Source: Vibrio japonicus
GTDB taxonomy: Bacteria; Pseudomonadota; Gammaproteobacteria; Enterobacterales; Vibrionaceae
Reading direction: 5' to 3'
DNA length: 64,000 nucleotides
Assembly (NCBI RefSeq): GCF_024582835.1
Contig: NZ_CP102096.1
Coordinates: 2,046,001 to 2,110,000 of the forward strand
Below, in pieces: positions 46,567 through 64,000 of the stretch (positions are counted from its first letter, which is position 1; the number at the start of each line of letters is the position of its first letter). The translations under genes and the position numbers were made by a program. Under the pieces are notes generated by a model. That model was not told the DNA's origin. It searched no databases and saw nothing but the letters and a program-made list of their open reading frames with translations.

Positions 46567-48678
46567 ATGAGCGCAGAAAAGCTGTATATAGAAAAAGAGC
46601 TCAGCTGGTTGTCTTTCAACGAGCGAGTATTACAAGAAGCAGCAGACAAAAGTGTTCCACTCATTGAAAGAATTCGATTTTTAGGCATATTTTCCAATAA
46701 CTTAGATGAATTTTATAAAGTTCGCTTTGCTGACGTCAAACGACGCATTTTGATCAACCAAGAGCAAGGAGTAAATAGCAACTCCAAGCACCTTCTGAGC
46801 AAAATGCAATCTAAAGCACTCAAGTTAAATGAAAGGTTTGATGAACTTTATGCAGAATTGATCCGTGAAATGGCTCGTCGACGCATTTTTCTGGTCAATG
46901 AAACTCAACTGAGTGAAACTCAACAAAGGTGGGTAAAGAAATACTTCCAAAATGAGGTGCTTCCTCACATCACCCCTCTCTTCCTACGCGACGATATCGA
47001 CGTCCTGCAGTTTTTGAAAGACGAATACTCTTATATTGCGGTCTCGTTAAAAAGTCAGGAACAAAGTCAGTACGCTCTGCTTGAAATCCCTACCGATCAC
47101 TTGCCTCGATTCGTCATGGTTCCTGAACCAAAAGGCAAACGTCGTAAAACCATTATCTTGCTTGATAACATCATTCGTTATTGTCTGGATGAGTTGTTTA
47201 GCGGGTTCTTTGATTATGACGAGCTCAGCGGCTACGCAATGAAAATGACGCGAGATGCCGAATATGACTTAAGCCACGAGGTAGAGCACAGCCTACTAGA
47301 ACAGATGTCTGAAGGTTTGAGTCAGCGACTTACCGCAATGCCAGTCCGCTTTGTTTATGAGCGCGAGATGCCGCAGGACATGCTTGATATTCTCTGCGAT
47401 AAGTTACAAATCTCTAACTACGATAGCCTGATACCGGGTGGTCGTTACCACAACTTTAAAGACTTTATCGGATTTCCAAACGTCGGTCGTGACTACTTGG
47501 AAAACAAACCTCTGCCGCCAATGAAGTGCGCTGACTTTGATGGATACGCGAACAAATTCGACGCGATAAAAAATCAAGACATTCTACTTTATTATCCATA
47601 CCACACTTTCGAACACATCAGCGAGTTAGTTCGACAAGCGTCGTTTGATCCTAAAGTTCTGGCAATTAAAATCAACATCTATCGTGTCGCTAAAGACTCG
47701 CGTTTAATGAACTCTCTTATTGATGCTGTTCATAACGGCAAGCAAGTTACTGTAGTCGTAGAGTTACAAGCGCGTTTCGATGAAGAGGCCAACATTGAAT
47801 GGTCACGCATCCTGACCGAAGCGGGCGTACACGTTATTTTTGGCGCGCCAGGTCTTAAAATTCACTCTAAACTTCTGCTAATTAGTCGCAAAGAAGGCGA
47901 CGACATCGTTCGTTATGCTCACATTGGTACAGGTAACTTCCACGAAAAGACTGCTCGTATCTATACAGACTTCTCGTTACTGACGGCTGACCCAGAAATC
48001 ACCAATGAAGTGCGCAACGTATTCGGCTATATCGAAAACCCATACAGACCGGTACGATTCAATCACCTTCTTGTTTCGCCTCGTAATTCACGAAAACAGC
48101 TGTATCGCATTATTGATTCTGAAATCGCCAATGCCAAGCAAGGTAAGAAAGCCGCGATTACTCTAAAAGTAAATAACCTTGTAGATAAAGGACTGATCAA
48201 TAAGCTCTATGGCGCAAGCGCGGCAGGTGTTGAGATTAAAATGATCATACGAGGCATGTGTTCTTTAGTGCCGGGGGTTGAAGGCATAAGCGACAACATT
48301 AAAATTATCAGTATCGTTGACCGCTTTTTGGAACACCCCCGTGTATTGATTACGTACAACGATGGCGATCCACAAGTCTACATCTCATCTGCTGACTGGA
48401 TGACACGAAATCTCGACAACCGTATTGAAGTCAGCGCCCCTATTCGTGATGAACGTCTAAAACAACGCATTATTGATATCATTGATATCCACTTTACAGA
48501 TACAGTTAAAGCTCGCCTGATAGACAAAGAAATGAGCAATACCTATGTTCCGCGTGGCAACCGTAAGAAAGTTCGCTCGCAGATTGCGATTTACGACTAT
48601 CTTAAAAATATAGAAAAGCAAACAAAAAAACGTAAAGAACAGCCGATATATGAACAATCAATCTCCGCAGATTCGTGA
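46567..48678 (+). CDS. ppk1: Polyphosphate kinase 1
   Basis: This 703-residue enzyme makes polyphosphate from ATP on the inner face of the membrane. The N-terminal domain starts [16 protein letters not shown]. The PLD-like core contains [16 protein letters not shown], the phospho-histidine motif [11 protein letters not shown] and [17 protein letters not shown]. Length fits E. coli PPK (688). AGAAGG precedes the ATG. The gene overlaps ppx by 29 bases and is divergent from pstC under a Pho box. Confidence 0.97.
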
Positions 48679-50173
48679 TGTAGCCGCGATTGATCTTGGC
48701 TCTAACAGCTTCCATATGGTCGTTGCTAAAGTCGTTGACCAAGACTTGCAACTCGTAAGCCGACACAAGCAGCGTGTGCGTCTTGCGTCAGGATTAGACG
48801 CACAAAACAATCTTGATAATGCTTCTATTGAGCGAGGCTTAGAATGCCTCGCGATGTTCGCTGAACGCTTACAAGGATTTGATGAAGAAAACGTACGCGT
48901 TGCTGCAACTCATACGCTGCGTCAGGCCAACAATACGCACATTTTTCTACAGCGCGCATCGGAAGTTCTCCCGTTCCCGATTGAGATCATTCCCGGTGTC
49001 GAAGAAGCGCGCCTGATTTACCTTGGCGTTGCCCACACTCAGCCAGAATCTGACTCCAAATTGGTCATCGATATCGGTGGCGGCAGTACAGAAATGATCA
49101 TTGGCAAAGGCTTCGAAGCCGAGCTCATCAACAGTAAACAGATGGGTTGCGTCAGTTATACTAACCGCTTTTTTGCGAATGGTAAGCTGTCGAAAAAGAA
49201 CTTTGCCAAAGCCACTCTAGCAGCCGAGCAAAAAATCGAATCGATTGCTCACAGCTACCGTAGAAAAGGTTGGGATACCGCGTTCGGCTCTTCGGGCACC
49301 ATCAAAGCGATTAAAGAAGTACTAATAGGTCTTGGTTTTGAAGACGGCATCATTACCGCCAAGCGACTGGATAAACTCATTGAGAAACTTTGCGAATGGC
49401 AAACGATTGACGATATTGAGCTTGTGGGATTAACCCCTGAGCGTAAACCCGTGTTTGCCGCGGGCGTCGCGATTTTAGGCGCTATCGTGAAAGATCTTCA
49501 TATCAATGAAATGCACTTTTCTGAAGGTGCGCTCCGTGAAGGTCTGCTGTTTGAGATGGAAGATTCGTTTAAGCGTTCAGACATCCGAATGCGAACAACC
49601 GAGAATCTTGCAAGTAAGCACTTAGTCGACCTGGAGCATGCCGCTAAAATTAAGGGCCAAGCTACGGAGTTCTTCCATCAAGTTCATTCCGATCTGAGTA
49701 TTGAGGAGAACTCTGAACTTCTGGATATGCTTCAGTGGAGTGCTTTACTTCATGAGGTTGGACTCAGCATTAGTTTACAAGCGTTCCATCGCCACTCCTC
49801 TTATATTCTTCGCCATACTTATATGCCCGGCTTTAACCAAGAGCAACAACGGGTGTTAGCCATGTTGGTCCGCTTCCAGCGTAAAGCTTTAAAACTGGGT
49901 GAGTTAGAAGAGTTTACCCTGTACAAGAAGAAACACATTATTGGTCTTATTCGCATTCTACGACTTGCGATACTGGTCAATGGGCAACGTAATGAGGAAC
50001 CATTACCGCCGCTTTCGCTCGCTATTGATGGAGAAAAGTGGACACTGACATCAGAGCAAAAAGACTGGTTAGAGCAGAACAAACTTTTACATGCAGATCT
50101 GTTAACAGAGCAGGACTACTGGAAGAGTGCAGGCTGGGAATTAGATATTCAGGATGAAAGCCTTCGAGAGTAG
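48650..50173 (+). CDS. ppx: Exopolyphosphatase
   Basis: This 507-residue enzyme releases orthophosphate from polyP ends. ASKHA-fold motifs are visible: [15 protein letters not shown] near residue 12 and [15 protein letters not shown] near 142. The C-terminal HD-like domain follows ([23 protein letters not shown]). Length matches E. coli PPX (513). It starts inside ppk1 (29-base overlap), so the two opposing enzymes are translationally linked. A terminator ends the pair. Confidence 0.97.
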
Positions 50174-50261
50174 AACCTTCGCAGCTAAAGCGACAAAAGG
50201 TAAGTAACGACAAAAAGGTAAGTGAATCTTGAGTCATCGTGGTTCACTTATCACGAACATA

Positions 50262-50302
50262 AGTCACAGGCGAAACGACGATACCGCCTGTGACTTTTTT
50301 GT
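50262..50302. terminator. Terminator of ppk1-ppx
   Basis: AGTCACAGGCG (50262-50272) pairs with CGCCTGTGACT (50285-50295), followed by TTTTTTG on the plus strand. It may also act weakly on pstS transcripts from the other side. Confidence 0.88.
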
Positions 50303-50354
50303 TTCTCGCTTGGTCATGCCCACTTAGCTCATCAACCTCAAATAATCGGGATAA

Positions 50355-51323
50355 TTACTGTTCCGAAGACTTCTGAGCCAATCCTATTTTTTTCAACTCT
50401 TGATAAGCAATGTCAGCAGAGATAGGTATATAGCCTTCCTTTTTTACCTGCGCTTGCCCCTGAGCAGAGAAAATAAAACGAATAAACTCACTTTCTACTG
50501 GCGAAAGCGGCTTAGTTGGGTGCTTATTGACGTAAACATACAGATAACGAGAGAGTGGGTACTTACCTGTAAGGATATTTTCCTGGCTTGGTTTGACATA
50601 GTCATCCCCTTCTTTCGCCACCGAAAGCAATTTTACACCAGACACTTGGTAACCGACCCCAGCATAACCAATCGTGTTAATCGCCGATGCAACAGACTGA
50701 ACTACCGATGCAGAGCCTGGCTGTTCATTGACGTTGTTCTTAAAGTCTCCTCCGCAAAGGGCATTATTCTTAAAGTAGCCATAAGTCCCTGATACAGAGT
50801 TCCGCCCAAACAACTGGATGCTGCGTTTTGCCCATTGGTAATCGAGCCCGAGTTCTGACCAAGTTGAGATAGAAGACGTCGCACCACAACGCAAAGTCGT
50901 AGAAAACATACTGTCAATTTGGGCAAAGTTAATCCCTTGGATAGGATTATCGCGATGAACAAAGATACCGATAGCATCAATCGCCACTCTGAGCGCCGTT
51001 GGCTTATAGCCATACTCTTGCTCGAAAGACTCAATCTCTCGATTGCGCATGGCGCGGCTCATTGGGCCAAATTGAGCCGTCCGCTCTGTTAATGCGATTG
51101 GCGCTGTGGATGAACCCGATGCCTGAACCTGAGCATTAATACTCGGGTAAAGAAGTTTAAATTCTTCAAACCAAAGTGTCGTCATGCCAGCCAAGGTATC
51201 GGACCCCACGCTGGTTAAAGTACCTGTTATTCCCGACACTTTTTGGTACTCGGGCATTTCTCTCGCCTGAGCTGTAACACCGCATACTGATGACATCAAA
51301 GCGATAGTGAGCACTAACCTCAT
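50355..51323 (-). CDS. pstS: Phosphate-binding protein PstS
   Basis: This 322-residue periplasmic solute-binding protein has a signal peptide ending near AQA (residues 1-20). The phosphate-binding signature is QASGSSTAPIALTERTA, and a later loop has NSVSGTYGYF. It is expected to feed the large PstC/PstA pair but is not in their operon. Its ATG overlaps the phoR stop (TAATG), so it is the third gene of phoB-phoR-pstS. This order is known in other vibrios. Confidence 0.93.
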   Translation of the reverse strand: MRLVLTIALMSSVCGVTAQAREMPEYQKVSGITGTLTSVGSDTLAGMTTLWFEEFKLLYPSINAQVQASGSSTAPIALTERTAQFGPMSRAMRNREIESFEQEYGYKPTALRVAIDAIGIFVHRDNPIQGINFAQIDSMFSTTLRCGATSSISTWSELGLDYQWAKRSIQLFGRNSVSGTYGYFKNNALCGGDFKNNVNEQPGSASVVQSVASAINTIGYAGVGYQVSGVKLLSVAKEGDDYVKPSQENILTGKYPLSRYLYVYVNKHPTKPLSPVESEFIRFIFSAQGQAQVKKEGYIPISADIAYQELKKIGLAQKSSEQ

Positions 51324-52621
51324 TAGTACACCACTAAGCGTTTAGGCAAAACAAATGAGAATTTACTCCCCACACCCACTTCGCTGTGAATATTTAAATG
51401 AGAATCATGGTGCGTCAACGCGTGTTTAACAATCGCAAGCCCTAGCCCACTACCACCAGTATCACGCGAACGGGCTTTATCCACTCGGTAGAATCTTTCC
51501 GTTAACCTGTGAAGGTGTTGTGGCTCAATACCATCACCACTGTCTTCCACTTCAAGGCAAGCGCCTTGGGGCCCTTTATACCAACGGACATTAATCTCAG
51601 CACCTGCGGGGGTGTATTTCACTGCGTTGTACACCAAGTTGGAAATTGCACTGCGTAGCTGATCTTCATCGCCAAATACACGTAGCTTGTCATCCACCTC
51701 AAAATGAATTCGGTGGTCATTGTCGCCACTTAAGCTTACGGCTTCTTTTTCAAGCACATCCAACATCGCAGGCACATTGACCACTTCATCCAACTCATGC
51801 ATGGGGGCGGCTTCAATCTTAGAAAGTGTAAGCAACTGATTAACCAAGCTGTTCATGCGATTAAGCTGCTCTGTCATGACGCCATGAGCTTTCGACCACA
51901 TAGGGCCGACAACCATGTCCGGGTCTTCCGTCATCTCAAGATAGCCCTGTAGCACCGTCATTGGCGTACGAAGCTCGTGAGAAACGTTAGCAAAGAAGTT
52001 ACGACGCATACCTTCGAGCTGCTTAAGCTGGCTGACGTCACGAACCACCATCAAATGCTCACCTTCGGTATAAGGTACGATACGCAGCTCAAGCATACGC
52101 TCCACGTTTAAAGGAGAGCGCATTTCAAGCGGTTCTGAAAAGTCTTTTTTATTAAGGTATTTGATAAAGTCCGGTGTGCGGATTAAATTCGAGATCGGCT
52201 GACCAGAATCATCCGGCCAACGAAAGCCAAGTAAGTCCTGAGCCAGTTTGTTGCACCAAACGATGTTCCCTTCGCTACGAAATACGACGACAGCATCGGG
52301 CAAAGATTCTGCACCGTTACGAAAACGGCGGATCAGATTGGTTAACTCTTTACGTTTTTTACGTTGTCGCTGCTGGATTCGGTAAATACCATTAAACAAC
52401 GATTCCCAGCTTCCAGTCCCTGACGGCGGAGTTAACCTTTTCTCATCAAACAACCATGCTGAAAAACGAATTTGGTTGTTAAGATGCCACGCCAACTGTA
52501 TGACCGTTGCCGTCAAAAGCAACCAAGGCATGTAGCCAAAAATCCACCCAACCACTATCCAAGGGGTGTAAAAAAAAGCCAGCTCCCAAGCTAGCTTTTT
52601 CCAAGTTAACCGTTCTACCAC
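51323..52621 (-). CDS. phoR: Phosphate-sensing histidine kinase PhoR
   Basis: This 432-residue inner-membrane kinase has two close N-terminal helices (about 14-50), no sizeable periplasmic part and a PAS domain at about 100-195. The phospho-acceptor is His215 in [23 protein letters not shown]-binding motifs are [19 protein letters not shown] and [10 protein letters not shown]. It phosphorylates PhoB when phosphate is low, under control of PstSCAB-PhoU. It is 18 bases after phoB and overlaps pstS by one base. Confidence 0.97.
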
Positions 52622-52639
52622 TTACCTCTCCACCGAGCT

Positions 52640-53329
52640 TTAAGACTTAACCGAGAAACGATATCCAGCACCACGTACTGTTTGAATCAGTTTGTCGTGA
52701 CCAGCAACCTCTAGAGCCTTACGCAAACGACGAATATGAACGTCCACCGTGCGGTCTTCCACATAAACGTTGGTTCCCCATACGTTATTCAGCAGTTGCT
52801 CTCGGCTGTATACACGCTCTTGGTGCGTCATAAAGAAATGCAGCATTTTGAACTCAGTCGGCCCCATATCGAGCGGCTGATCATTGGCGGTAACACGGTG
52901 AGAAACAGGGTCTAGCTTTAAGCCTTGAACATCAATGACATCTTCTAATGCTGTTGGTGTCACTCGACGAATCACAGCCTTTAAACGTGCTACCAGCTCT
53001 TTTGGCGAGAAAGGCTTGGTGATGTAATCATCCGCGCCGACTTCCAGTCCTCGGACTTTATCTTCCTCTTCGCCGCGAGCCGTTAGCATCACAACAGGAA
53101 TATTGCGCGTCAGCTCTTCGCGCTTCATATGCTTAATGAAGTTAATACCACTACCGCCGGGTAACATCCAATCCAGCAGCACAAGATCTGGGAAGGGTTC
53201 AGCCAGTTTAGTTACCGCAGTATCATAATCTTCCGCTTCTACCGCTTGGTAACCCTTCTGCTCAAGAACGAAGCATAACATTTCACGAATTGGGGCTTCA
53301 TCTTCAACAACTAGAATCCTTCTAGACAT
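52640..53329 (-). CDS. phoB: Phosphate regulon response regulator PhoB
   Basis: This 229-residue OmpR-type regulator has Asp53 in [11 protein letters not shown] as phospho-acceptor, Lys in [14 protein letters not shown], and a C-terminal winged helix with [34 protein letters not shown]. Length equals that of E. coli PhoB. AAGG precedes the ATG. A Pho box lies 79 bases upstream, so the operon is probably autoregulated. Confidence 0.98.
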
Positions 53330-54452: not shown

Positions 54453-54460
54453 TTAAAGAA

Positions 54461-54493
54461 AAAGCTCTCAGAAAGGCGCTGAGAGCTTTTTTA
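54461..54493. terminator. Two-way terminator between rdgC and cysN
   Basis: AAAGCTCTCAG and CTGAGAGCTTT form an 11 bp stem with T-runs on both strands (TTTTTTA on plus, TTTTTCTTT on minus). Confidence 0.93.
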
Positions 54494-54534: not shown

Positions 54535-55941
54535 TTAGACCTCTGCACACCCCCACTCTGGGAAGTGTTTACGCACATAGGCATTCAGTTCTTTCTCAGC
54601 TTGACTATAGTGACGAACCTGCTCTGAAGCGCCGCCCACAGTGTATACCATGCCAGCACCAACTGTCACATTGGTAAAACGGTCGATAACAACAAATGCC
54701 CCTGTCTGAGGTAGTGAGCGATATTCATCAACGGCAACTTTATCTGTAAGAGAAATTGAGGTTAATGCAATTTCGTTTAGCTCGAGTGATTCGCTATTTT
54801 CTGCATGTTGCTCAAGTGTGTTAACGTCAATCTTATGCTCAATATTTTTGACGCGGCCACTGCATGATTTAGTTGCAAATTTGAAGGTGTACTCTTTATG
54901 TGTTCGCAAAGGATTTTCATCCATCCAAACAACATGAGCCTCAACCTTATTGGTGACGACTGGCTCGTGGCCAACATGTACCAACATATCACCGCGAGAC
55001 ACATCGATTTCATCAGTTAAGGTAATCGTAATCGCTTGACCCGGAAATGCTTTTTCAAGCAGACCATCATGAGTGTAGATTGATTTAACTGTTGAGGCTT
55101 TTCCTGAAGGTAGAGCAACAACTTCATCACCTGGTTGAATAACACCAGACGCCAATGTACCGCAAAACCCACGGAAGTCTAGGTTAGGCCTATTGACATA
55201 CTGAACCGGGAATCGCATTGCTTCCAGGTTCTTGTCTTGATCAACCTTCACCGTCTCTAACAACTTCATTAATGTTGCACCTGGGTACCAATCCATGTGT
55301 TCACTAGGTGTAACAACATTATCCCCTTTCAGGGCGGAAATCGGCACAAAGCGAATATCATCAATATTAAAGCTCTTAGCCATTTCACGGTAATCGGCCT
55401 TAATCTTTTGATAAACCTCTTGGCTATAATCCATCAGGTCCATCTTATTGATAGCAACAATGATGTGCTTGATTCCTAGCAGAGAACAAATATAGCTATG
55501 GCGACGTGTTTGGGTTTGAATACCGTAACGCGCATCCACCATAACAATCGCCAGCTCACATGTTGAAGCGCCTGTCACCATATTGCGAGTATATTGCTCA
55601 TGCCCTGGAGTATCAGCAATAATGAACTTACGCTTATCTGTAGAGAAATAACGATACGCAACGTCAATCGTGATGCCTTGTTCACGTTCTGACTGCAGGC
55701 CATCAACCAGCAAGGCCAAATCGAAGGCTTCATCTGTTGTATTAAACTTTTGTGAGTCTTTCTCGATTGCAGCCATCTGATCTTCGTAAATTAACTTGCT
55801 ATCGTATAGTAAGCGGCCGATCAAAGTGGATTTACCGTCATCTACGTTTCCACAAGTTAAGAATCGAAGAAGATCTTTGTTTTCGTGTACTTTTAAATAT
55901 GCTTCGATATCTTCTGCTATCAATTCTGATGAATGTGACAT
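54535..55941 (-). CDS. cysN: Sulfate adenylyltransferase GTPase subunit CysN
   Basis: This 468-residue GTPase drives APS formation by CysD. Residues GNVDDGKS at 31-38, [12 protein letters not shown] and NKMD are the EF-Tu-like GTPase motifs. A beta-barrel C-terminus follows. The length is that of stand-alone CysN, with no fused CysC domain. It is separated from cysD by cysC and a DHH gene, and from the DHH stop by 122 bases. In the usual assimilation operon cysD and cysN abut. Context points to activation of sulfate for sulfotransferases. Confidence 0.96.
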
Positions 55942-56063
55942 TTCAAAGTCCTTTAATAAAATTGCTCAAAGCAACGCTATGACGTTAATTGGAGAAAGAA
56001 TGTACCTATACTTTTTCATCATTTACTTTCTCATCATTGTTGCTTTGTGATTTAACTGTCTTA

Positions 56064-57029
56064 CTAGGAGTAAAAACTCTCTAGTTTATGGATAAACTCA
56101 GCTTTCGTTGAGATAGGCAATTGGTTAATACCAGCGGCTGCTTTTCTCCCTCCCCCAGTAGGGAAGGCAGCGCAAATCTCATCGGCACCAGTACGATTAT
56201 TTAATGGCGCTCGTACGCTGACTGTATAATCTTGGCCCTTTTCATTTAGGGTCAGTACCGCATGAGCTTTATCTGGAGATTGATTCGCTAGCGAATTACC
56301 AAATACGCCACTTATTCTTCTTGCCCAAGGCTCACATGGAAGTTCAAATACCTTCGCAACGTCACTATCATAACTTGCTGTCAACGCATCGACTTGGAGT
56401 AAATCTTCTGCATACCCTTCTTTTAACGTGTAATAAGGAGATGCTTTGTCTTCTAACAAGTCAAAAGGCGATGAATATTGCATTAGTTGTACAAACAGTT
56501 CTGCGGGCTCAATATGCAAATCACCTAATGTGGCTCCGTAGCCGTTATAGTTAATTAACGTACCAAGCTCTTTCAGAAACTCTCGTTTTTCCGATGATAT
56601 ACCAACTTGCTCTGCGAGAGCGTCCGCACTAGCGAACATATTGTCTCCATACGCACCCACCACTGCCCACACAGCAAACTGACCACCTAAGTGCTTGTTG
56701 ATCAGCAAACTTGTGCAAGTATGAGGGTCTAAGTCAATCAGGGCGGTAAAATTATCGGCTTGCGGAACCTCACCAGCACGGTGGTGGTCACAGTAAAACA
56801 CTGGAACATCACGATCGATAAGTGTGTATAAAGGATCAATATTCTTCTCCATCGATACATCGAGTACTGTCACTCCCGACACATCGTGGCGTGCACACAC
56901 CTTATCAAGTAACTTTATGTCTCTTTTAACACCCGTCACTAGAGTAGAGCGTTTCGGCTCTGCTTTACGTAACTGCAGTAGTGCGATAATTCCATCCGCA
57001 TCACCATTAAAAACATCGTAATGCATCAT
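56064..57029 (-). CDS. DHH-family phosphoesterase, probable PAP phosphatase
   Basis: This 321-residue protein has the DHH motifs: DADG at residues 10-13, LDVS at 56-59, CDHH at 80-83 and VGAYGDN at 124-130. The C-terminal DHHA1 part ends GGGRKAAAG at 292-300, where the family usually has a His after GGG. Related NrnA proteins cut 3'-phosphoadenosine 5'-phosphate (pAp) to AMP and short RNAs. The gene starts on the last base of the cysC stop (TAATG). A PAP-removing enzyme is what sulfotransferases need, so PAP phosphatase is the best guess; nanoRNase is the alternative. Confidence 0.8.
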   Translation of the reverse strand: MMHYDVFNGDADGIIALLQLRKAEPKRSTLVTGVKRDIKLLDKVCARHDVSGVTVLDVSMEKNIDPLYTLIDRDVPVFYCDHHRAGEVPQADNFTALIDLDPHTCTSLLINKHLGGQFAVWAVVGAYGDNMFASADALAEQVGISSEKREFLKELGTLINYNGYGATLGDLHIEPAELFVQLMQYSSPFDLLEDKASPYYTLKEGYAEDLLQVDALTASYDSDVAKVFELPCEPWARRISGVFGNSLANQSPDKAHAVLTLNEKGQDYTVSVRAPLNNRTGADEICAAFPTGGGRKAAAGINQLPISTKAEFIHKLESFYS

Positions 57030-57658
57030 TAAATATACCCATGCTCTTTTAATTGAGATACGACAAGCCCAGCACACTCTTCAACGCTCTTGCCTGCCGT
57101 TTCCACATGAATTTCCGGGCTTAAAGGCGCTTCATAGCTTGAATCAATTCCAGTGAAGTTTTTTATCTCACCCGCTCGCGCTTTTTTATACAGCCCTTTA
57201 GGATCACGCTGCTCACAAACTTCTAACGGTGTATCAATAAACACTTCTAGAAACTGTCCCTTCTCTACCAATGCGCGAGCTTGCTCTCTGTCCGCAATAA
57301 AAGGGGAAATGAATGCTGTGAGTACGATAGTGCCTGAATCAACAAACAGTTTGGCGACTTCACCAATGCGGCGAATATTCTCGACACGATCATGATCACT
57401 AAAGCCCAGATCTTTATTCAGGCCATGCCTTATATTGTCACCATCGAGTAGATAGCTATGCTTGCCTAAACTAAGTAACTGGCTTTCAACCGCATTCGCT
57501 ACCGTAGACTTCCCTGAGCCACTCAGCCCTGTAAACCAAAGAACTACTGGCTTTTGAGCTTTTAGATCGCTTCTGTCTTGATGGGACACTGTCGCATTGT
57601 GCCAGACAACATCCTCACTCACTGAGTCGTTCGCCTTATGCTCGTATGGGCTATTCAT
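57029..57658 (-). CDS. cysC: Adenylylsulfate (APS) kinase
   Basis: This 209-residue kinase phosphorylates APS to PAPS, the donor for sulfotransferases. The P-loop GLSGSGKST is at 44-52. [18 protein letters not shown] follows, and the family serine is Ser118 in AFISPF. The C-terminal lid has [21 protein letters not shown]. Its start overlaps the cysD stop by one base and its stop overlaps the DHH start by one base, so cysD-cysC-DHH is one tightly coupled unit. Confidence 0.97.
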
Positions 57659-58572
57659 TAGAAGTAACCTTCTCGCTTTTTCTTCTCCATTGAACCGGCA
57701 CTGTCATGGTCGATCGCACGCCCTTGACGCTCAGATGTGGTCGTTAGAAGCATCTCCTGAATAACTTCAGGTAGCGTTACAGCTTCAGACTCCACCGCAC
57801 CTGTTAACGGGTAACAACCTAGTGTACGGAAACGAACCATCTTCTCTTCAACGACTTCGCCTTCCTTAAGCTCCATTCGCTCATCATCAACCATGATCAA
57901 CATACCGTCACGTTCAACGACTGGGCGCATTGCAGAAAGGTAAAGGCCTGGAATTTCGATATTTTCTAGGTAGATATATTGCCAGATATCCAGCTCAGTC
58001 CAGTTAGAAAGTGGGAATACACGGATACTCTCACCCTTGTTCACTTTACCGTTGTAGATGTTCCAAAGCTCTGGTCGTTGATTTTTTGGATCCCAACGAT
58101 GGTGTTCATCACGGAATGAGTAGACTCGCTCTTTCGCACGGGATTTTTCTTCATCACGACGGGCGCCGCCAAATGCAGCATCAAAGCCATGCTTATCCAG
58201 TGCTTGCTTTAGCCCTTGTGTTTTCATGATATCAGTATGCTTTGAGCTACCATGAACAAATGGACTGATATTCATCGCCAGACCTTCTGGGTTTTGATGA
58301 ACGATCAATTCCATGCCTAGCTTTTTCGCCATGTAGTCACGGAACTCAATCATCTCTTTAAACTTCCACGTGGTATCAACATGCATCAATGGAAATGGAG
58401 GCGTTCCAGGTGCAAAAGCTTTCTTAGCTAAGTGCAACATTACCGACGAATCTTTGCCAACCGAGTAAAGCATAACTGGGTTATCAAATTCAGCCACGAC
58501 TTCGCGCATTATATGTATTGACTCTGCTTCAAGCTGCTTTAAATGAGTCATACGTTCTGAAGATATTTTCAT
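57658..58572 (-). CDS. cysD: Sulfate adenylyltransferase subunit CysD
   Basis: This 304-residue catalytic subunit makes APS from sulfate and ATP together with CysN. The PP-loop [22 protein letters not shown] and [17 protein letters not shown] are diagnostic. The end [20 protein letters not shown] is family-typical. The ATG at 58572 is chosen since homologues begin about six residues before the conserved [13 protein letters not shown]; an in-frame ATG at 58599 would add nine residues. It follows the SLC13 gene closely. Confidence 0.96.
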
Positions 58573-58605
58573 TGCAAATGTGTTCCATAGTTGCAGCATA
58601 CGGGG

Positions 58606-60342
58606 CTAATAGCCGTACACTAAAGTAATTGCAGCTACCGTTATTGTTCCATAGACAACACTGACCGGTAGTCCAACTCTAACAAAATCCATAATTCGGT
58701 ATTGACCGGCATTATAAACCATTAAATTAGTTTGATATCCATATGGGCTAAAAAAACTAGCACTCGCACCGAATGCCACTGCCATAATGTAACCCGTTGG
58801 ATCTATTGCTAAGCTTTGAGCTAAGCCTATTGCTATTGGAAAAACTAATGCTGCTGCCGCATTATTCGTCACAAGCTCTGTTAGCCACCACGTTGCTAGG
58901 TAAATAACACATAGCGCGACAAATGGCGTAAAGCTCTGCTGATTATTAGCAATGACTTGACTAAGCAAGTCGATAGCTTGTGTGTTAGTTAACGCGTAAG
59001 AAAGCAGCAACGCAGAGGAAATAATCAACCAGATCTGAGTGGGTAAACGCTGTAGGATTTCATTGGGCTTCAGGGTGTTAGTTAAAAGTAATATGCCTAA
59101 AAACAGCAACAAACTCTTAAATAGCGAGACTAAACCAAGCGCAGATAAAGCGATAGAAACCACAAACCCCAACACAGCCAACCACTCACTGCGTTGGCTT
59201 AACGTACGTTCCGTTTCAACACCACTCACAAAAAAGAAGTTTTTGCTTAAGTTATGTCGGGATTTGAAGTCTTCACCCACCGCTAATACTAAATAATCAC
59301 CCGGCTTTAGTAACACCTCACCGAGCTTCCCTGACAACCTCTCTCCATCACGCTTGATTGCCACTACGGCTGCGTCAAACAAAGCCCGAAAACCGGCGTG
59401 TTTTAAGGTCTTGCCTACTAGTATGCTTTCAGGCCTGATAATGACCTCTGAAAGGTTATCAAGCAGCAAACCGTTCTGGTTTGCAAAAGATTCTAACCCT
59501 GAGAATTGATTTAGTAGCGTGACTTTTTTGATATCACCACTAAACAATAACCTGTCGCCTTGCTGCAATACTTCTGAAGGGGAGACAGGGGAAATAAGAT
59601 GCCCTCCGCGCTGCAATTCAACCAAGAATAACGACTCTAAGTTACGCAGTCCGTTTTCTTCTATGGTTTTTCCAATTAAGGAAGATTCTGGCATCACTTT
59701 CGTATCGATAAAGTAATCAGCGACAACCTTGGTATTCTCAGGTCGGTTGGGTAGCCAACGGCTAAAAAAAAACAGAGTAGCACCACACCCTAGCACTAAT
59801 AGTGAGCCAATTAGCGTGAAATCGAAAAAACCCAATTCTGGTAAACCTAGATCGATGACCATAGAATTGACGATCAAATTGGTTGAGGTACCGACTAACG
59901 TCAAGGTGCCACCTAAAATAGCCGCATAAGAAAGCGGAATAAGAAGGCGGCTGGGAGAATGGTGATTGTTTGCACGAATCGGTGCCAACATAGCAGAGAC
60001 AACTGCCGTGTTATTCAACACCGCTGACGAAAGCGCGCTAAAGGTAAAAAGATTAAGCCATGAGCGAGTGTAACTAGGACGAATCACATAATTGGCAATT
60101 TGACGCAGTATTTTGGTCTTTTCTAACGCCAGTGAGCAGAGCATCAACAGCACCAGAGTTAGCACGCCTTGATTTGCAAAACTTGCCACTACCTGCTCAT
60201 TTGTGACAAAGCCACAAGCAATCAGTACGAGCAACAACAAACCAAACACTCTTTCAGGTTGAGACTGGAACTTTATCAACCCCAATATAGTTAGCGCAAA
60301 CAAGCCTAAGACAATGTATGCAGGTACAACTTCGACGTTCAA
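58606..60342 (-). CDS. SLC13-family transporter with two TrkA-C domains, probable sulfate permease
   Basis: This 578-residue inner-membrane protein has two blocks of helices (about 1-195 and 375-575). Between them lie two cytoplasmic RCK-C/TrkA-C repeats: VMPESSLIGKTI...GDRLLFSGD at about 215-275 and IRPESILVGKTL...GDYLVLAVGED at about 300-360. The motifs SSAVLNNTAVVSAML and VGTSTNLIVNS define the SLC13/DASS group. Homologues sit next to cysDNC genes in vibrios. Directly before cysD, sulfate uptake is the natural role; specificity is inferred. Confidence 0.88.
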   Translation of the reverse strand: MNVEVVPAYIVLGLFALTILGLIKFQSQPERVFGLLLLVLIACGFVTNEQVVASFANQGVLTLVLLMLCSLALEKTKILRQIANYVIRPSYTRSWLNLFTFSALSSAVLNNTAVVSAMLAPIRANNHHSPSRLLIPLSYAAILGGTLTLVGTSTNLIVNSMVIDLGLPELGFFDFTLIGSLLVLGCGATLFFFSRWLPNRPENTKVVADYFIDTKVMPESSLIGKTIEENGLRNLESLFLVELQRGGHLISPVSPSEVLQQGDRLLFSGDIKKVTLLNQFSGLESFANQNGLLLDNLSEVIIRPESILVGKTLKHAGFRALFDAAVVAIKRDGERLSGKLGEVLLKPGDYLVLAVGEDFKSRHNLSKNFFFVSGVETERTLSQRSEWLAVLGFVVSIALSALGLVSLFKSLLLFLGILLLTNTLKPNEILQRLPTQIWLIISSALLLSYALTNTQAIDLLSQVIANNQQSFTPFVALCVIYLATWWLTELVTNNAAAALVFPIAIGLAQSLAIDPTGYIMAVAFGASASFFSPYGYQTNLMVYNAGQYRIMDFVRVGLPVSVVYGTITVAAITLVYGY

Positions 60343-60379
60343 TTTTCTATTCTTATGGTTTTCTAATATTCAACTTAGG

Positions 60380-61030
60380 CTAGAGTGTTTTATACACTGA
60401 TAACGCCTGCTCCAAATCTTCGTAATAGGTAAGCTCACCTTGATGCAAGATAACCGCGCTATCACAAAATTGGCGAATCTCTTTTAAATCATGGCTGACC
60501 ATGATAACACTCGCTGTTTTACTTTTCTGTAAAAGTGCATTTTTGGCTTTCTGGCGAAACTTTTGGTCCCCTACGGATGTTGCCTCATCAATCAAATACA
60601 CATCGAAATCAATCGCTATACAGCAACCAAACGCCAAACGAGAGCGCATACCGCTCGAGTAGTTTTTCACAGGAAGATCGTACTTAATACCCAGCTCAGC
60701 AAAGCTTTTTACCTTTTCTTCGTACTCGTCCAGATTGCCGACGCCATTTACTCTACCAATAAAGCGTGTATTTTCTCGCCCTGTCATTTGAGGATGAATA
60801 CCAGTTGCTAGGGCAACTGGCCAAGAGATAGCGCGATCAGTAATCACCTTGCCCGAATTCGGGTATTCGCTACCAGCAATGATGCGGAATAGAGTTGATT
60901 TACCTGCACCATTCGAACCGAGTAAAGCGACATTACGCCCTTCAGGAAAAGTAAAGTTAATATTTTGAAAGATGTACTGTTTACCCAGTTCGGATGGGTA
61001 GTATTTAGTCAGGTTACGCAGCTCAATCAT
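60380..61030 (-). CDS. kpsT: Capsule polysaccharide export ATPase, KpsT-like
   Basis: This 216-residue ABC ATPase is of the KpsT/CtrD type that powers group 2 capsule export. Walker A is LGSNGAGKSTLFRI at about 37-50, the signature is YSSGMRSRLAFG and Walker B is FDVYLIDEATSVGD. The size fits KpsT (about 220). The ATG at 61030 overlaps the previous gene by eight bases. No KpsM-type permease is in view; it must lie to the right or elsewhere. Its place in a sulfotransferase operon links sulfation to an exported polymer. Confidence 0.9.
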   Translation of the reverse strand: MIELRNLTKYYPSELGKQYIFQNINFTFPEGRNVALLGSNGAGKSTLFRIIAGSEYPNSGKVITDRAISWPVALATGIHPQMTGRENTRFIGRVNGVGNLDEYEEKVKSFAELGIKYDLPVKNYSSGMRSRLAFGCCIAIDFDVYLIDEATSVGDQKFRQKAKNALLQKSKTASVIMVSHDLKEIRQFCDSAVILHQGELTYYEDLEQALSVYKTL

Positions 61031-62258
61031 CGGTAATTTTTTGTTCCATTTGCGTAAGCTTGTGCTTGATAAATTCACCTTCCGGGCGAAGCTTATGAGC
61101 AATACGCATGAGTTGGCATGCTATATCAGGATCACTCTCCTCAAAAAATAGTGATGCGTTACGTATTTCATCAATATATTTATTCCTACTGCCATTGAGC
61201 GACACTGTTTTATGAGGATGACGTAAATCGTTTTTGGTTAGATGAAGACCAAGTTGTGCGGGTTCTTTATTCAGCTCATCTTTAATCTGACGCCGACGCC
61301 GTACAACTTCTGGTATCGTAATATTATTTAACGCACGATATAAGACTTTAGCTTCATCTTTATTAACACCATTATCGATCACTGATAGTAATTTTTGGTA
61401 TCGAGCTGTAACGTAACCTTTTGAATCAAAAACATCCGAAACTAGATCTAGATTTTCCAGCATCGTTTCATATTTCTGGTAATAGTTATCCAACAAATAA
61501 GAATCAATTTTATATTCAATATCTAAGCCTTTATCTGTCTTATAGCCCTTTCGGTTTGATTTAAATCGATTTCCATTTGGGAGTCCTCTTCCAAGCATAG
61601 ACACATACTCAAGCTGACCTCTATACAAGCGGTGTACCAAAAAAGCTTTTGGAAAACAGCCTTTATCTATTTTAACTTTTGCTTTCACATGTTCTAAAAA
61701 ATCCGCAGTCTTCAAATTACCATCTGCATAGTGTAAATTATCACCGTTAGAATTATGTATTCCTAGGCTATACTTACGCCCTAGTTTAATTAAATGTTTC
61801 ACATGTAAGTCCAAAGCTAACACGTTATTTTTCGAGAAACAATGGCTAAAATCAGAATCACTTTTGTGTATTGCCCAGTTAAATAAATAAACATCAAACT
61901 GTTCGCTTTTTTTTATATACTCTTGGATACTAGATTTAAAATCATTTGGCGTCCAAAACTCATCCACATCAAAGAAGGCTATATGTGAAAATTGTTTTGA
62001 AGGCGTTTTTTTTAAAGAATATTCATAAGCTCGTGTTTGAAATAACTTAGCTCCCTTATGATACAAGCCATCACTATCTATAATGTTAATATTATAAGCA
62101 TTCGATAGCTTTTCTAATACTTCTTTTGATTTATCTGATGTGTTATTTACATGTATATCGAATGAATCAAAACCAAAGTATGCATGATGATATATCCACT
62201 CGGGTAAATAAGCAGCTTCGTCTTTAGCTATTGCAACTAACTTTACTCTAGTTTCCAT
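61023..62258 (-). CDS. Glycosyltransferase-like protein (Glyco_tranf_2_4/GT92-like)
   Basis: This 411-residue protein begins VKLVAIAKDEAAYLPEWIYHHAYFGFD, the pattern of the family-2-like glycosyltransferases related to GT92. FFDVDEFW serves as the DxD-type metal motif near residue 98. The C-terminal region (RRRRQIKDELN, then a helical tail) has no match I recognise. No signal peptide, so it should be cytoplasmic, working on the polymer before export. The gene is AT-rich relative to the cys genes. It overlaps kpsT by eight bases and follows the sulfotransferase by one base. Confidence 0.78.
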   Translation of the reverse strand: METRVKLVAIAKDEAAYLPEWIYHHAYFGFDSFDIHVNNTSDKSKEVLEKLSNAYNINIIDSDGLYHKGAKLFQTRAYEYSLKKTPSKQFSHIAFFDVDEFWTPNDFKSSIQEYIKKSEQFDVYLFNWAIHKSDSDFSHCFSKNNVLALDLHVKHLIKLGRKYSLGIHNSNGDNLHYADGNLKTADFLEHVKAKVKIDKGCFPKAFLVHRLYRGQLEYVSMLGRGLPNGNRFKSNRKGYKTDKGLDIEYKIDSYLLDNYYQKYETMLENLDLVSDVFDSKGYVTARYQKLLSVIDNGVNKDEAKVLYRALNNITIPEVVRRRRQIKDELNKEPAQLGLHLTKNDLRHPHKTVSLNGSRNKYIDEIRNASLFFEESDPDIACQLMRIAHKLRPEGEFIKHKLTQMEQKITDD

Positions 62259-62259
62259 A

Positions 62260-63288
62260 TTAATTTTTCTCGCTTATCTTTAAGAGCATGTTCATCTGAA
62301 TTGCGACTAAATCTTCTAGCTTTTCAATTCGTTGCTGTAATAGTGACATCTCACTTTCTGTACTTTGTGTAATGTTTTTTTTGGATGAAGGAAAAACTGA
62401 CCTACCTGAGTAATACATGTTCTCGAGTGCTAGATTCGATTCTAGAAATCTATCTTCTATCTTTTTTGTCAGATCAAAGGAAAGCGTGATAGCGTATTTT
62501 TTACTTATCAAATTCTGACTATTAGGCGCAGATGCTAAAATAGTATTTTTAATCTTTTGAGTATGAGGGCTCTCATAAATAGTGTAAATTTTCGTTAGGC
62601 TTTCGCATATAGCACTGCTTAGTCCCTCATTACTAGCTTCTAGAAACAGCTTTAGTCCGTTATTATTAATACCTGCTCTAGTACAAAAGTCTATAGTTAA
62701 ATTTTTTTTAATTAAGTGCTTTTTATCTAATGAGCAAACTTTTAGTTCAGCGTTAGGATAATAATTACTAAGCTGTTCTGTAACAAATACATAATCACCA
62801 AAATTAGTATTTATCATTTTATCGATATAAGCGTCTAGTGTTTCGCCTTTTTTGTGTCCCCATTGCTGCCACGCGGAAAGAAGTAACTCTCGTTGATCAC
62901 GAATATAGTAAACAACTTTAACCTTACTAAAGCGTGTCGAAAATAAAGAGTGGATTGCTTTTAGCTTTGGAGATCCTATTGCATTTACTAAATTTTCTGC
63001 TGTGATTATTACTTTCTTACAGCCTTGATCTTCGGCAGTAATTAAAAAGTCGTCAATCTTTTTTTCTAGTGCATTAATGTTAAGATCGCCATTGATGACT
63101 TTTTCTATAAAGTCTCTTGGTGTATGAGTCCGATTAATTCGATACGCTTTATTGCATGGGAAGTTGAAGTCACTATCTGGCATAAAAATGCCACGATCTT
63201 TTAACACTAGTCTATTAGCATAAAGAAAATCTTGAATAGTAGTCGAACCACATTTTGGGTGGCCTGGGTGTAAAATCAGCTCAATCAT
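62260..63288 (-). CDS. Sulfotransferase-like protein with C-terminal coiled coil
   Basis: This 342-residue protein starts MIELILHPGHPKCGSTTIQDFL. PKCGSTTIQ fits the 5'-phosphosulfate-binding loop of PAPS sulfotransferases. VVYYIRDQRELLLSAWQQW fits the 3'-phosphate-binding Arg/Ser region. About 30 residues at the end form a leucine-rich coiled coil (MSLLQQRIEKLEDLVAIQMN), possibly for docking with a partner. The DNA is AT-rich with many rare codons, suggesting transfer. It lies two bases after the next sulfotransferase gene. Carbohydrate is the likely acceptor. Confidence 0.8.
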   Translation of the reverse strand: MIELILHPGHPKCGSTTIQDFLYANRLVLKDRGIFMPDSDFNFPCNKAYRINRTHTPRDFIEKVINGDLNINALEKKIDDFLITAEDQGCKKVIITAENLVNAIGSPKLKAIHSLFSTRFSKVKVVYYIRDQRELLLSAWQQWGHKKGETLDAYIDKMINTNFGDYVFVTEQLSNYYPNAELKVCSLDKKHLIKKNLTIDFCTRAGINNNGLKLFLEASNEGLSSAICESLTKIYTIYESPHTQKIKNTILASAPNSQNLISKKYAITLSFDLTKKIEDRFLESNLALENMYYSGRSVFPSSKKNITQSTESEMSLLQQRIEKLEDLVAIQMNMLLKISEKN

Positions 63289-63289
63289 T

Positions 63290-64000
63290 TTAGAGCCACT
63301 CCTCCATAACGATGTTATATAAATCTTGAATTAAGTTAGAAGCGTTTGGGCTTAAAAGCCAATCAGGACTGATAGTCTTTATTTTTTTCTTATGATTGAC
63401 GGGAGCATAGCTCAATATCCGATCAGAGTATTTCTCTGGAATACTTCGTTCACAAAGCCGATCGACAAAATAATCTCCAGATTCAGTCGAGTCTTGATCT
63501 TTTGCCATTAAATCACGAATTTTGGGGATGAGCTCTTGAACATCATCTTTACGAGTATAGAAGTTTTCTCGAGTCTTACTGCTTTGAGGTAGTTGGGCTT
63601 TTTTACTCAAGACATTCAAGCAACGTATTATTTCTGTTGTTTCTGGATCCAAAGAAGCATTTCTTACGCCGTCGCTTTGCTTAGAAACATCGATTTCACC
63701 TGGCGAAATACCCATTAGGCCGAAGAATACACTTACTAATTCCCCATTTTTTGCTAAAGAGTCATAGTCTAAAATATGTAAATTTTCTCGGCCAAAGTGC
63801 TTCGCTAGTACATCTAATGTCATTGTCTGCATTAATGTTTTACTTTGCCCAGGGCGAATCAAATCTCGATAGAAGAATGAGTGAAAGGGTTCACATCCTC
63901 CATGTTTTACAGATTCTTGCCAAAGAGAATACATTTTCAAGCTTGAACGTCGCCATGCATAGATTACTTTGATATCGAAGTCTTTCTCTAGACTACTATA
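63290..64000 (-). CDS. Second sulfotransferase-like protein, 5' end outside window
   Basis: The frame remains open to the right edge, giving 236 visible residues and a missing N-terminus. The visible start contains DIKVIYAWRRSSLKMYSLWQ, the 3'-phosphate-binding motif (Arg and Ser of RRSSLK) of PAPS sulfotransferases. LHILDYDSLAKNG then matches the later fold. The 5' loop must lie beyond the window. It differs clearly from its neighbour, so the two probably modify different positions. Confidence 0.75.
   Translation of the reverse strand, partial: YSSLEKDFDIKVIYAWRRSSLKMYSLWQESVKHGGCEPFHSFFYRDLIRPGQSKTLMQTMTLDVLAKHFGRENLHILDYDSLAKNGELVSVFFGLMGISPGEIDVSKQSDGVRNASLDPETTEIIRCLNVLSKKAQLPQSSKTRENFYTRKDDVQELIPKIRDLMAKDQDSTESGDYFVDRLCERSIPEKYSDRILSYAPVNHKKKIKTISPDWLLSPNASNLIQDLYNIVMEEWL

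Follow-up and report, generated by a model that had tools for sequence, protein, structure and literature searches.

Genes of the locus

The window analysed here, by which we mean the whole stretch of 64,000 nucleotides, lies at positions 2,046,001 to 2,110,000 of contig NZ_CP102096.1 of Vibrio japonicus (assembly GCF_024582835.1; G000:C1:2046001-2110000 in our coordinates), a genome of 4.24 Mb in three contigs, two being 2.78 and 1.44 Mb long. Its last part, positions 54,535-64,000, was originally predicted from the letters alone to hold nine minus-strand genes forming a self-contained module for a sulfated polysaccharide. All nine were found there, and the family assignments derived from the open reading frame (ORF) list and from Pfam and NCBIfam profiles agreed with those proposed, the second sulfotransferase gene being cut by the window edge. 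The analysis described below suggests that the window probably carries the promoter-distal end of a polysaccharide cluster of the capsule type, in which a dedicated supply of 3'-phosphoadenosine 5'-phosphosulfate (PAPS) would serve the making of a sulfated polymer. The features are as follows (bare coordinates here and below are window positions).

54459-54491, minus strand: terminator-like hairpin 3' of cysN, a stem of 13 pairs and then a T-rich tail (match to the consensus only)
54535-55941, minus strand: cysN, GTPase subunit of ATP sulfurylase, 468 aa (NF003478, 727 bits, cut-off 590)
56064-57029, minus strand: DHH/DHHA1 phosphoesterase, 321 aa, proposed phosphatase of 3'-phosphoadenosine 5'-phosphate (PAP) (domain and homologue evidence)
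57029-57658, minus strand: cysC, adenosine 5'-phosphosulfate (APS) kinase, 209 aa (TIGR00455, 287 bits, cut-off 138.7)
57658-58599, minus strand: cysD, catalytic subunit of ATP sulfurylase, 313 aa (TIGR02039, 532 bits, cut-off 396.6)
58606-60342, minus strand: SLC13/DASS-type anion transporter with TrkA-C domains, 578 aa, presumed sulfate importer (PF03600, PF00939)
60380 to about 61030, minus strand: KpsT/Wzt/TagH-type ATP-binding cassette (ABC) exporter ATPase (ABC_tran; displayed NCBIfam matches below cut-offs)
61023-62258, minus strand: GT92-like glycosyltransferase, 411 aa (family match)
62260-63288, minus strand: sulfotransferase 1 (ST1), 342 aa (PF00685, 28.1 bits, cut-off 22; motifs HPGHPKCGSTT and R-x7-S)
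63290-64000, minus strand: sulfotransferase 2 (ST2), 3' part (homologues and motifs HVGPHKTGTT and R113-S121)

The genes overlap or are separated by gaps of 1-37 nt, with the exception of 122 nt between the DHH gene and cysN. The ATG of the DHH gene at 57,029 overlaps the stop codon of cysC, and the PAPS set begins 37 nt past the ABC ATPase gene, in the same gene run as the two sulfotransferases. The whole ST2 gene reaches window coordinate 64288 and encodes 332 aa in the genome. For the ABC ATPase an ATG start at 61030 was inferred, the listed ORF starting at 61102, and the SLC13 transporter matched TIGR00785 below the cut-off. The hairpin at 54459-54491 has the longest stem among the listed terminator-like hairpins and is presumed to close the transcription unit. 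Such hairpins were no more frequent in the region than expected by chance (18, compared with 14.9 on average in shuffled sequences, standard deviation 4.9).

The nine genes proved to be the downstream portion of a roughly 30-kb cluster, which continues rightward on the same strand. Its first members are genes for an RgpF-HAD protein of 677 aa and for a 348-aa protein without a Pfam family (L007:12311-13357, G000:C1:2112311-2113357; placed before rgpF with a 4-nt overlap), then an insertion element with remnants, and a third sulfotransferase (ST3). The rightward listing gives, beyond ST3, a glycosyltransferase of 1258 aa with WbsX, GT4 and GT2 domains, an rmlB-like gene (assigned from an epimerase/dehydratase domain and context) and rmlD, then two GT2 genes, rmlC, rmlA, and genes for a KpsE/Wzz-like protein (Wzz match of 22.3 bits, below the cut-off of 25.5), an ABC-2 permease (Wzm) and, standing with Wzm, a KpsD/Wza-like protein that carries Poly_export and SLBB domains. 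Past the KpsD-like gene, on the opposite strand, are yjbF, a gfcC-like gene and yjbH. The insertion element (L007:14441-15496, G000:C1:2114441-2115496) measures 1056 bp end to end, has 15-bp inverted repeats and is surrounded by older transposase remnants (2113.4-2116.1 kb), and its transposase gene is oriented opposite to the cluster. Since the permease of the exporter and its outer-membrane components are encoded some 20 kb from the nine genes, beyond this element, the module is not self-contained. Extension to the right did supply Wzm, the KpsE-like and KpsD-like proteins, the genes for dTDP-rhamnose and ST3, but neither kpsC nor kpsS, which had also been looked for there, was recognised among the scanned ORFs of a list that extends to 2160 kb. 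The JUMPstart core GGCGGTAG had a single match in the 40 kb searched upstream (L007 and L008), inside yjbH and at chance level.

ST1 and ST3 passed their Pfam cut-offs, and these two, both in this cluster, were the only proteins genome-wide above the cut-off of PF00685, the family searched. ST2 had no Pfam match of its own; among its relatives, P0128 and P0168 carry PF00685, and P0130, P0145 and P0150 are named sulfotransferase at their source. An alignment of 26 sequences showed that ST2 has kept H12, G14, the stretch H16-K-T-G-T-T21, and R113 with S121, and the R-x7-S stretch is present in all three proteins; we take the conserved motif and R-x7-S to be the 5'- and 3'-phosphate sites for PAPS of the sulfotransferase literature. 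In searches of solved structures there was no match for ST1 and nothing sulfotransferase-like for the ST2 profile, and ST3 weakly matched cytosolic sulfotransferases (E 0.0003).

Sulfate-activation sets and related capsule loci

The genome contains six places that match PF01507 above the cut-off, comprising three CysD, one CysH and two weak matches (36 and 23 bits). One of the further CysD copies belongs to a cysD-cysN-SLC13-cysC set that lies 3.3 kb from cysJIH (C1:2493649-2498028, NCBIfam models above cut-off), whereas the window set is about 390 kb from those genes. Within the window CysH, CysI and CysJ were not found by tblastn with the genome's own copies (the only matches had E values of 0.26 and 0.28), in agreement with the original statement that no sulfite-forming reductase is encoded there. 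The window set does not fit the picture of an assimilatory cysDNC operon, the only or main sulfate-activating set near cysHIJ. The third set, cysD-cysN-SLC13, lacks cysC and lies on the second contig (G000:C2:1104309-1108471, L011) near polysaccharide-type genes, named from ORF reading; its proteins are, in the order of the set, 94%, 85% and 78% identical to the assimilatory copies. APS kinase is encoded twice, in the window and in the set beside cysJIH. With three CysD copies and two APS kinases, the window set is clearly not the only one in the genome, and the separate assimilatory set supports the prediction of a pathway for a sulfated capsule or exopolysaccharide rather than for cysteine synthesis.

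The window set and the Vibrio assimilatory set share the same four functions, but the former has another gene order and the extra DHH gene. Its proteins are 81% (CysD), 58% (CysN), 61% (CysC) and 42% (SLC13) identical to the assimilatory copies, the SLC13 relatives of the two other cysDN sets being 42% and 40% identical to the window transporter. When compared with 13 other Vibrionaceae sets of the type cysD-cysC-DHH-cysN (L024-L033, L035, L036 and L046), the values were 88-95% for CysD, 77-90% for CysN and 72-84% for CysC. These identities place the window cysDN set in an old lineage separate from the assimilatory one, and they rule out a recent duplication of the assimilatory set. Ten of these 13 genomes had at least two CysD above the cut-off, and the other three (G003, G006 and G011, of which G006 is a 2.8-Mb assembly) had one.

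This kind of system is already known, as a Vibrio capsule that carries sulfate has been published together with a locus in a similar order. In Vibrio sp. KMM 8419 (V. chaetopteri) the capsule was proven chemically to be built of Rha3S4Ac-Glc, that is, 3-sulfated, 4-acetylated rhamnose and glucose (PMC11641403). As described there, one region of the locus has a second cysC, cysN and cysD alongside kpsT and an rgpF gene for 677 aa, and another has a sulfotransferase, a large glycosyltransferase, rmlA, rmlD, two GT2, rmlC, kpsE, kpsM and kpsD (PMC11641403). In a comparison limited to the names, sizes and order of the genes, the two loci are arranged almost alike, with an rgpF of 677 aa in both, and the present cluster likewise combines extra copies of cysD, cysN and cysC beyond an assimilatory set, sulfotransferase genes (ST1 and ST3 by Pfam, ST2 by homologues and motifs), kpsT, kpsM, kpsE and kpsD export genes (kpsE with the sub-threshold Wzz match) and dTDP-rhamnose genes with RgpF. 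The two differ in that GT61 is listed for KMM 8419 where a GT92-like protein is found here, that two sulfotransferases stand beside the ABC ATPase gene only here, that the large glycosyltransferase has 1106 aa in KMM 8419, that rmlB is inside the gene run here and elsewhere in KMM 8419, and that a JUMPstart core was reported for KMM 8419. Among the 120 ST3 relatives listed of 182 there was no named KMM 8419 protein. The less expected part of the present cluster is the DHH phosphoesterase, a gene of which the passages describing the KMM 8419 locus make no mention (PMC11641403).

The locus for the sulfated capsule of Cobetia marina KMM 1449 also resembles the present cluster in gene content, as ATP sulfurylase, APS kinase, a sulfate permease and a PAP phosphatase are encoded near kpsETMD. 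There, however, the phosphatase is CysQ, encoded inside the PAPS operon together with a fused CysN/CysC (PMC11766843), whereas here a DHH-family protein takes its place.

The proposed sulfated polymer

The catalytic and transport steps, the co-transcription of the genes, the sulfated product and rhamnose as its acceptor are all what we infer from this gene content. The SLC13 protein would import sulfate, from which CysDN would make APS and CysC would then produce PAPS; ST1, ST2 and ST3 would use this to sulfate sugars, probably rhamnose-containing, of a glycan built by the RgpF, WbsX and GT2 enzymes, and the KpsT-like ATPase with Wzm and the KpsE- and KpsD-like proteins would export the polymer. 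The cluster would then add to the sulfated-capsule loci of Vibrio and supply new candidates for polysaccharide sulfotransferases, enzymes that are poorly known in bacteria (PMC11641403).

Several observations weigh against this proposal. The insertion element and its remnants divide the cluster into two blocks, which makes their joint expression uncertain. In a genome scan for DHH homologues, from which the best 80 loci of at least 575 were taken (matches with less than 40% coverage were dropped, and those below 30% identity were also dropped before loci were counted), the ST2 profile matched only two loci (L036 and L039). A PF00685 match was present in six of the 13 Vibrio-type genomes but on the contig of the module in only one (G001, about 13 kb away), and an ORF in L033 matched Sulfotransfer_4 below the cut-off. 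A simple motif pattern for sulfotransferases picked out no flanking ORF in the 13 Vibrio loci, although it was evidently too strict, as the profile found one there. In favour of the proposal, three of 13 other genomes searched (G017, G013 and G022) had a PF00685 match 2, 7 and 27 kb, respectively, from the CysD of the module; nine of these 13 had a match in all. With sulfotransferases so rarely found close to the PAPS set in related genomes, the set may serve sulfotransferases of other families or at a distance, or none in some species.

Exporters of the Wzm/Wzt type serve O-antigens as well, and the sulfated product, rather than being a capsule, could be an O-antigen, a different surface glycan or a small glycoconjugate bearing sulfate, made with the same PAPS supply. 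That kpsC and kpsS were not seen among the ORFs scanned is consistent with this idea, as is the presence of a sulfotransferase gene (ORF_404) in the O-antigen region of KMM 8419 (PMC11641403). However, KpsE/Wzz-like and KpsD/Wza-like proteins beside Wzm fit export across two membranes, and the gene order is like that of the published capsule locus (PMC11641403), so that we regard a product of this other kind as rather improbable. It is similarly doubtful that the cluster has partly decayed, with the ST3-kpsD block uncoupled from the block running from the 348-aa protein gene to cysN and no sulfated polymer made. The insertion element, its remnants and its opposing transposase gene could be read in this way, but the genes of both blocks are open frames without internal stops, each block could have its own promoter, and the KMM 8419 locus, as published, is likewise divided into several regions (PMC11641403). 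Finally, genetic evidence from V. vulnificus for PAPS as a second messenger for brp, a biofilm polysaccharide, with cysDNC co-induced (PMC6113621), and the third cysDN-SLC13 set without cysC by a polysaccharide-type locus might suggest that the extra set serves mainly a PAPS signal or added assimilation capacity, with the sulfotransferases as minor passengers, but this seems very unlikely for a PAPS set placed 37 nt past the ABC ATPase gene in one run with two sulfotransferases, enzymes for which signalling has no need.

The DHH phosphoesterase beside cysC

Taken alone, the window DHH protein gave only weak DHH and DHHA1 matches (E 0.025 and 0.0054), below the Pfam cut-offs. Among 39 aligned members, 23 matched PF01368 and 17 matched PF02272 at E 0.001, and D11, D13, D58, D82-H83-H84, D130, R274 and the motif GGGR (293-296) were invariant in all 39 (the numbering is that of a reading frame one residue longer), so that both domains with the metal-binding residues are present at the level of the family alignment. 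The family is large, with at least 8000 candidates scored, and its named relatives are mostly from Vibrio; some database records label its members acetyltransferase. Two archaeal DHH enzymes, MtPAPP and PyapApase, are PAP phosphatases whose genes lie close to those for ATP sulfurylase and APS kinase (PMC10322725, PMC8268124). The window protein shares with them the DHH-DHHA1 arrangement, these neighbours and the metal-binding motifs, and the motifs allow the invariant positions to be equated with the metal-binding and substrate-binding positions of PyapApase (PMC8268124), in which a basic residue, lysine, also replaces the histidine of GGGH that is arginine here. It differs in belonging to a bacterial family for which no solved DHH chain was matched above noise.

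The genetic link of this family with PAPS synthesis was clear. A cysC gene was present in 49 of the 80 DHH loci and its alignment ended within 98 nt of the DHH gene in 40 of these, while CysH, CysI, CysJ and CysG were found in none of the 80, both flanks being complete in 57; some of the 31 loci without cysC end at contig edges (for example L074 and L082). The adjacency of cysC and DHH spans several families. In Vibrionaceae the typical arrangement was cysC-DHH-cysN (13 loci), and cysD-DHH-cysN-SLC13-cysC occurred in four of the cysC-bearing loci. In the tree the window protein belonged to a 16-row set (support 96/94), in which 14 rows have cysC in their locus and two do not. At the level of the genus, 17 of 89 genomes, the present one included, had at least two CysC, 71 had one and one had none; a DHH gene lay within 1 kb and on the same strand as a CysC in 15/17 genomes of the first group and 7/71 of the second (Fisher p 6e-10, kinship ignored; one counted DHH copy in each group, G058 and G049 respectively, is interrupted). 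A literature search covering listings, abstract starts and some passages turned up no paper on this DHH family beside cysC.

The relation to CysQ was examined in the family of the methanotroph Methylotuvimicrobium (G035, L084). The DHH profile was matched in 45 of 61 genomes, in one of them (G155) by no more than an incomplete frame containing a stop, and CysQ was above the cut-off in eight, seven without DHH and G155. Thus, CysQ was found in 0/44 genomes with an intact DHH gene and in 8/17 without (p 8e-6), or, if G155 is counted as DHH-bearing, in 1/45 and 7/16 (p 2e-4), kinship being ignored in both tests. Nine of the 61 had neither. Methanotrophs and gill symbionts (L084, L088, L091, L057, L061, L067, L081, L096, L097 and L098) carried cysC paired with DHH, with cysD and cysN missing from the fetched stretches, some of which are short, and with no CysQ above the cut-off.

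We infer that the DHH protein, a little-studied enzyme, is a bacterial PAP phosphatase that may replace CysQ and would clear PAP, the toxic by-product of sulfation. More broadly, we lean towards the view that the gammaproteobacterial DHH/DHHA1 family with GGGR, often encoded directly after cysC, may be a dedicated PAP phosphatase that replaces CysQ in whole lineages. In Vibrionaceae it would belong to a portable cassette, cysD-cysC-dhh-cysN, through which polysaccharide clusters obtain PAPS of their own and dispose of the by-product independently of cysteine synthesis. If so, the protein would account for the PAP phosphatase missing from methanotrophs and other bacteria that lack CysQ, and a function would be gained for a common family partly annotated as acetyltransferase. 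PAP removal by this protein, as originally proposed, has indirect support from the linkage to cysC and the exclusion of CysQ in methanotrophs.

The evidence is not all of one kind. The two genes are mutually exclusive in the one methanotroph family, yet CysQ was above the cut-off in 33 of the 48 genomes with a DHH-cysC locus (the 49 minus L086), though in none of the ten methanotrophs among them, and the present genome has CysQ and a second DHH protein as well; since CysQ co-occurs so widely, DHH is often not a substitute for a missing CysQ. Moreover, NrnA-type DHH enzymes act poorly on pAp (PMC9757072). Each of the 23 other genomes whose DHH locus contains cysD had a single CysD above the cut-off, from which it follows that their DHH operon presumably feeds cysteine synthesis too. 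PAP arises on both routes, cysteine synthesis and sulfation. The use of the DHH gene as a marker of sulfated-polysaccharide loci was ruled out by the same 23 genomes.

The second DHH protein (G000:C1:266222-267175, L023) is 59% identical to that of the window and groups in the tree with unlinked Vibrio proteins. Its place is conserved in many Vibrio loci, hemE-envC-like, between TetR-type and envC-like genes by ORF reading, and no cysC is found in these loci. The window protein itself might be a nanoRNase or dinucleotide phosphodiesterase of the NrnA, NrnB or PggH type instead of a PAP phosphatase, a reading favoured by this fixed place of the paralogue away from cys genes. Characterised bacterial DHH/DHHA1 enzymes often cleave short RNA, and no solved chain matched the paralogue above noise, the best, at noise level, being B. 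subtilis NrnA (E 0.21). The weak action of NrnA on pAp (PMC9757072), the reported specificity of a V. cholerae DHH enzyme for pGpG (Heo 2022, as cited in PMC9757072, PMC12709177 and PMC10600005) and the frequent co-presence of CysQ point in the same direction. On the other hand, the window family adjoins cysC across several families, excludes CysQ in the methanotroph family, has GGGR in place of GGGH, comparable to the lysine of PyapApase, and matched no solved DHH chain above noise; a role in RNA or dinucleotide turnover is unlikely, although it deserves some weight.

On its other side, beyond rdgC, the cluster is adjoined by phosphate-related genes (46567-53329), which comprise polyphosphate kinase, exopolyphosphatase and PhoB by NCBIfam models, together with a PstS-like protein and a histidine kinase assigned from ORF reading only.

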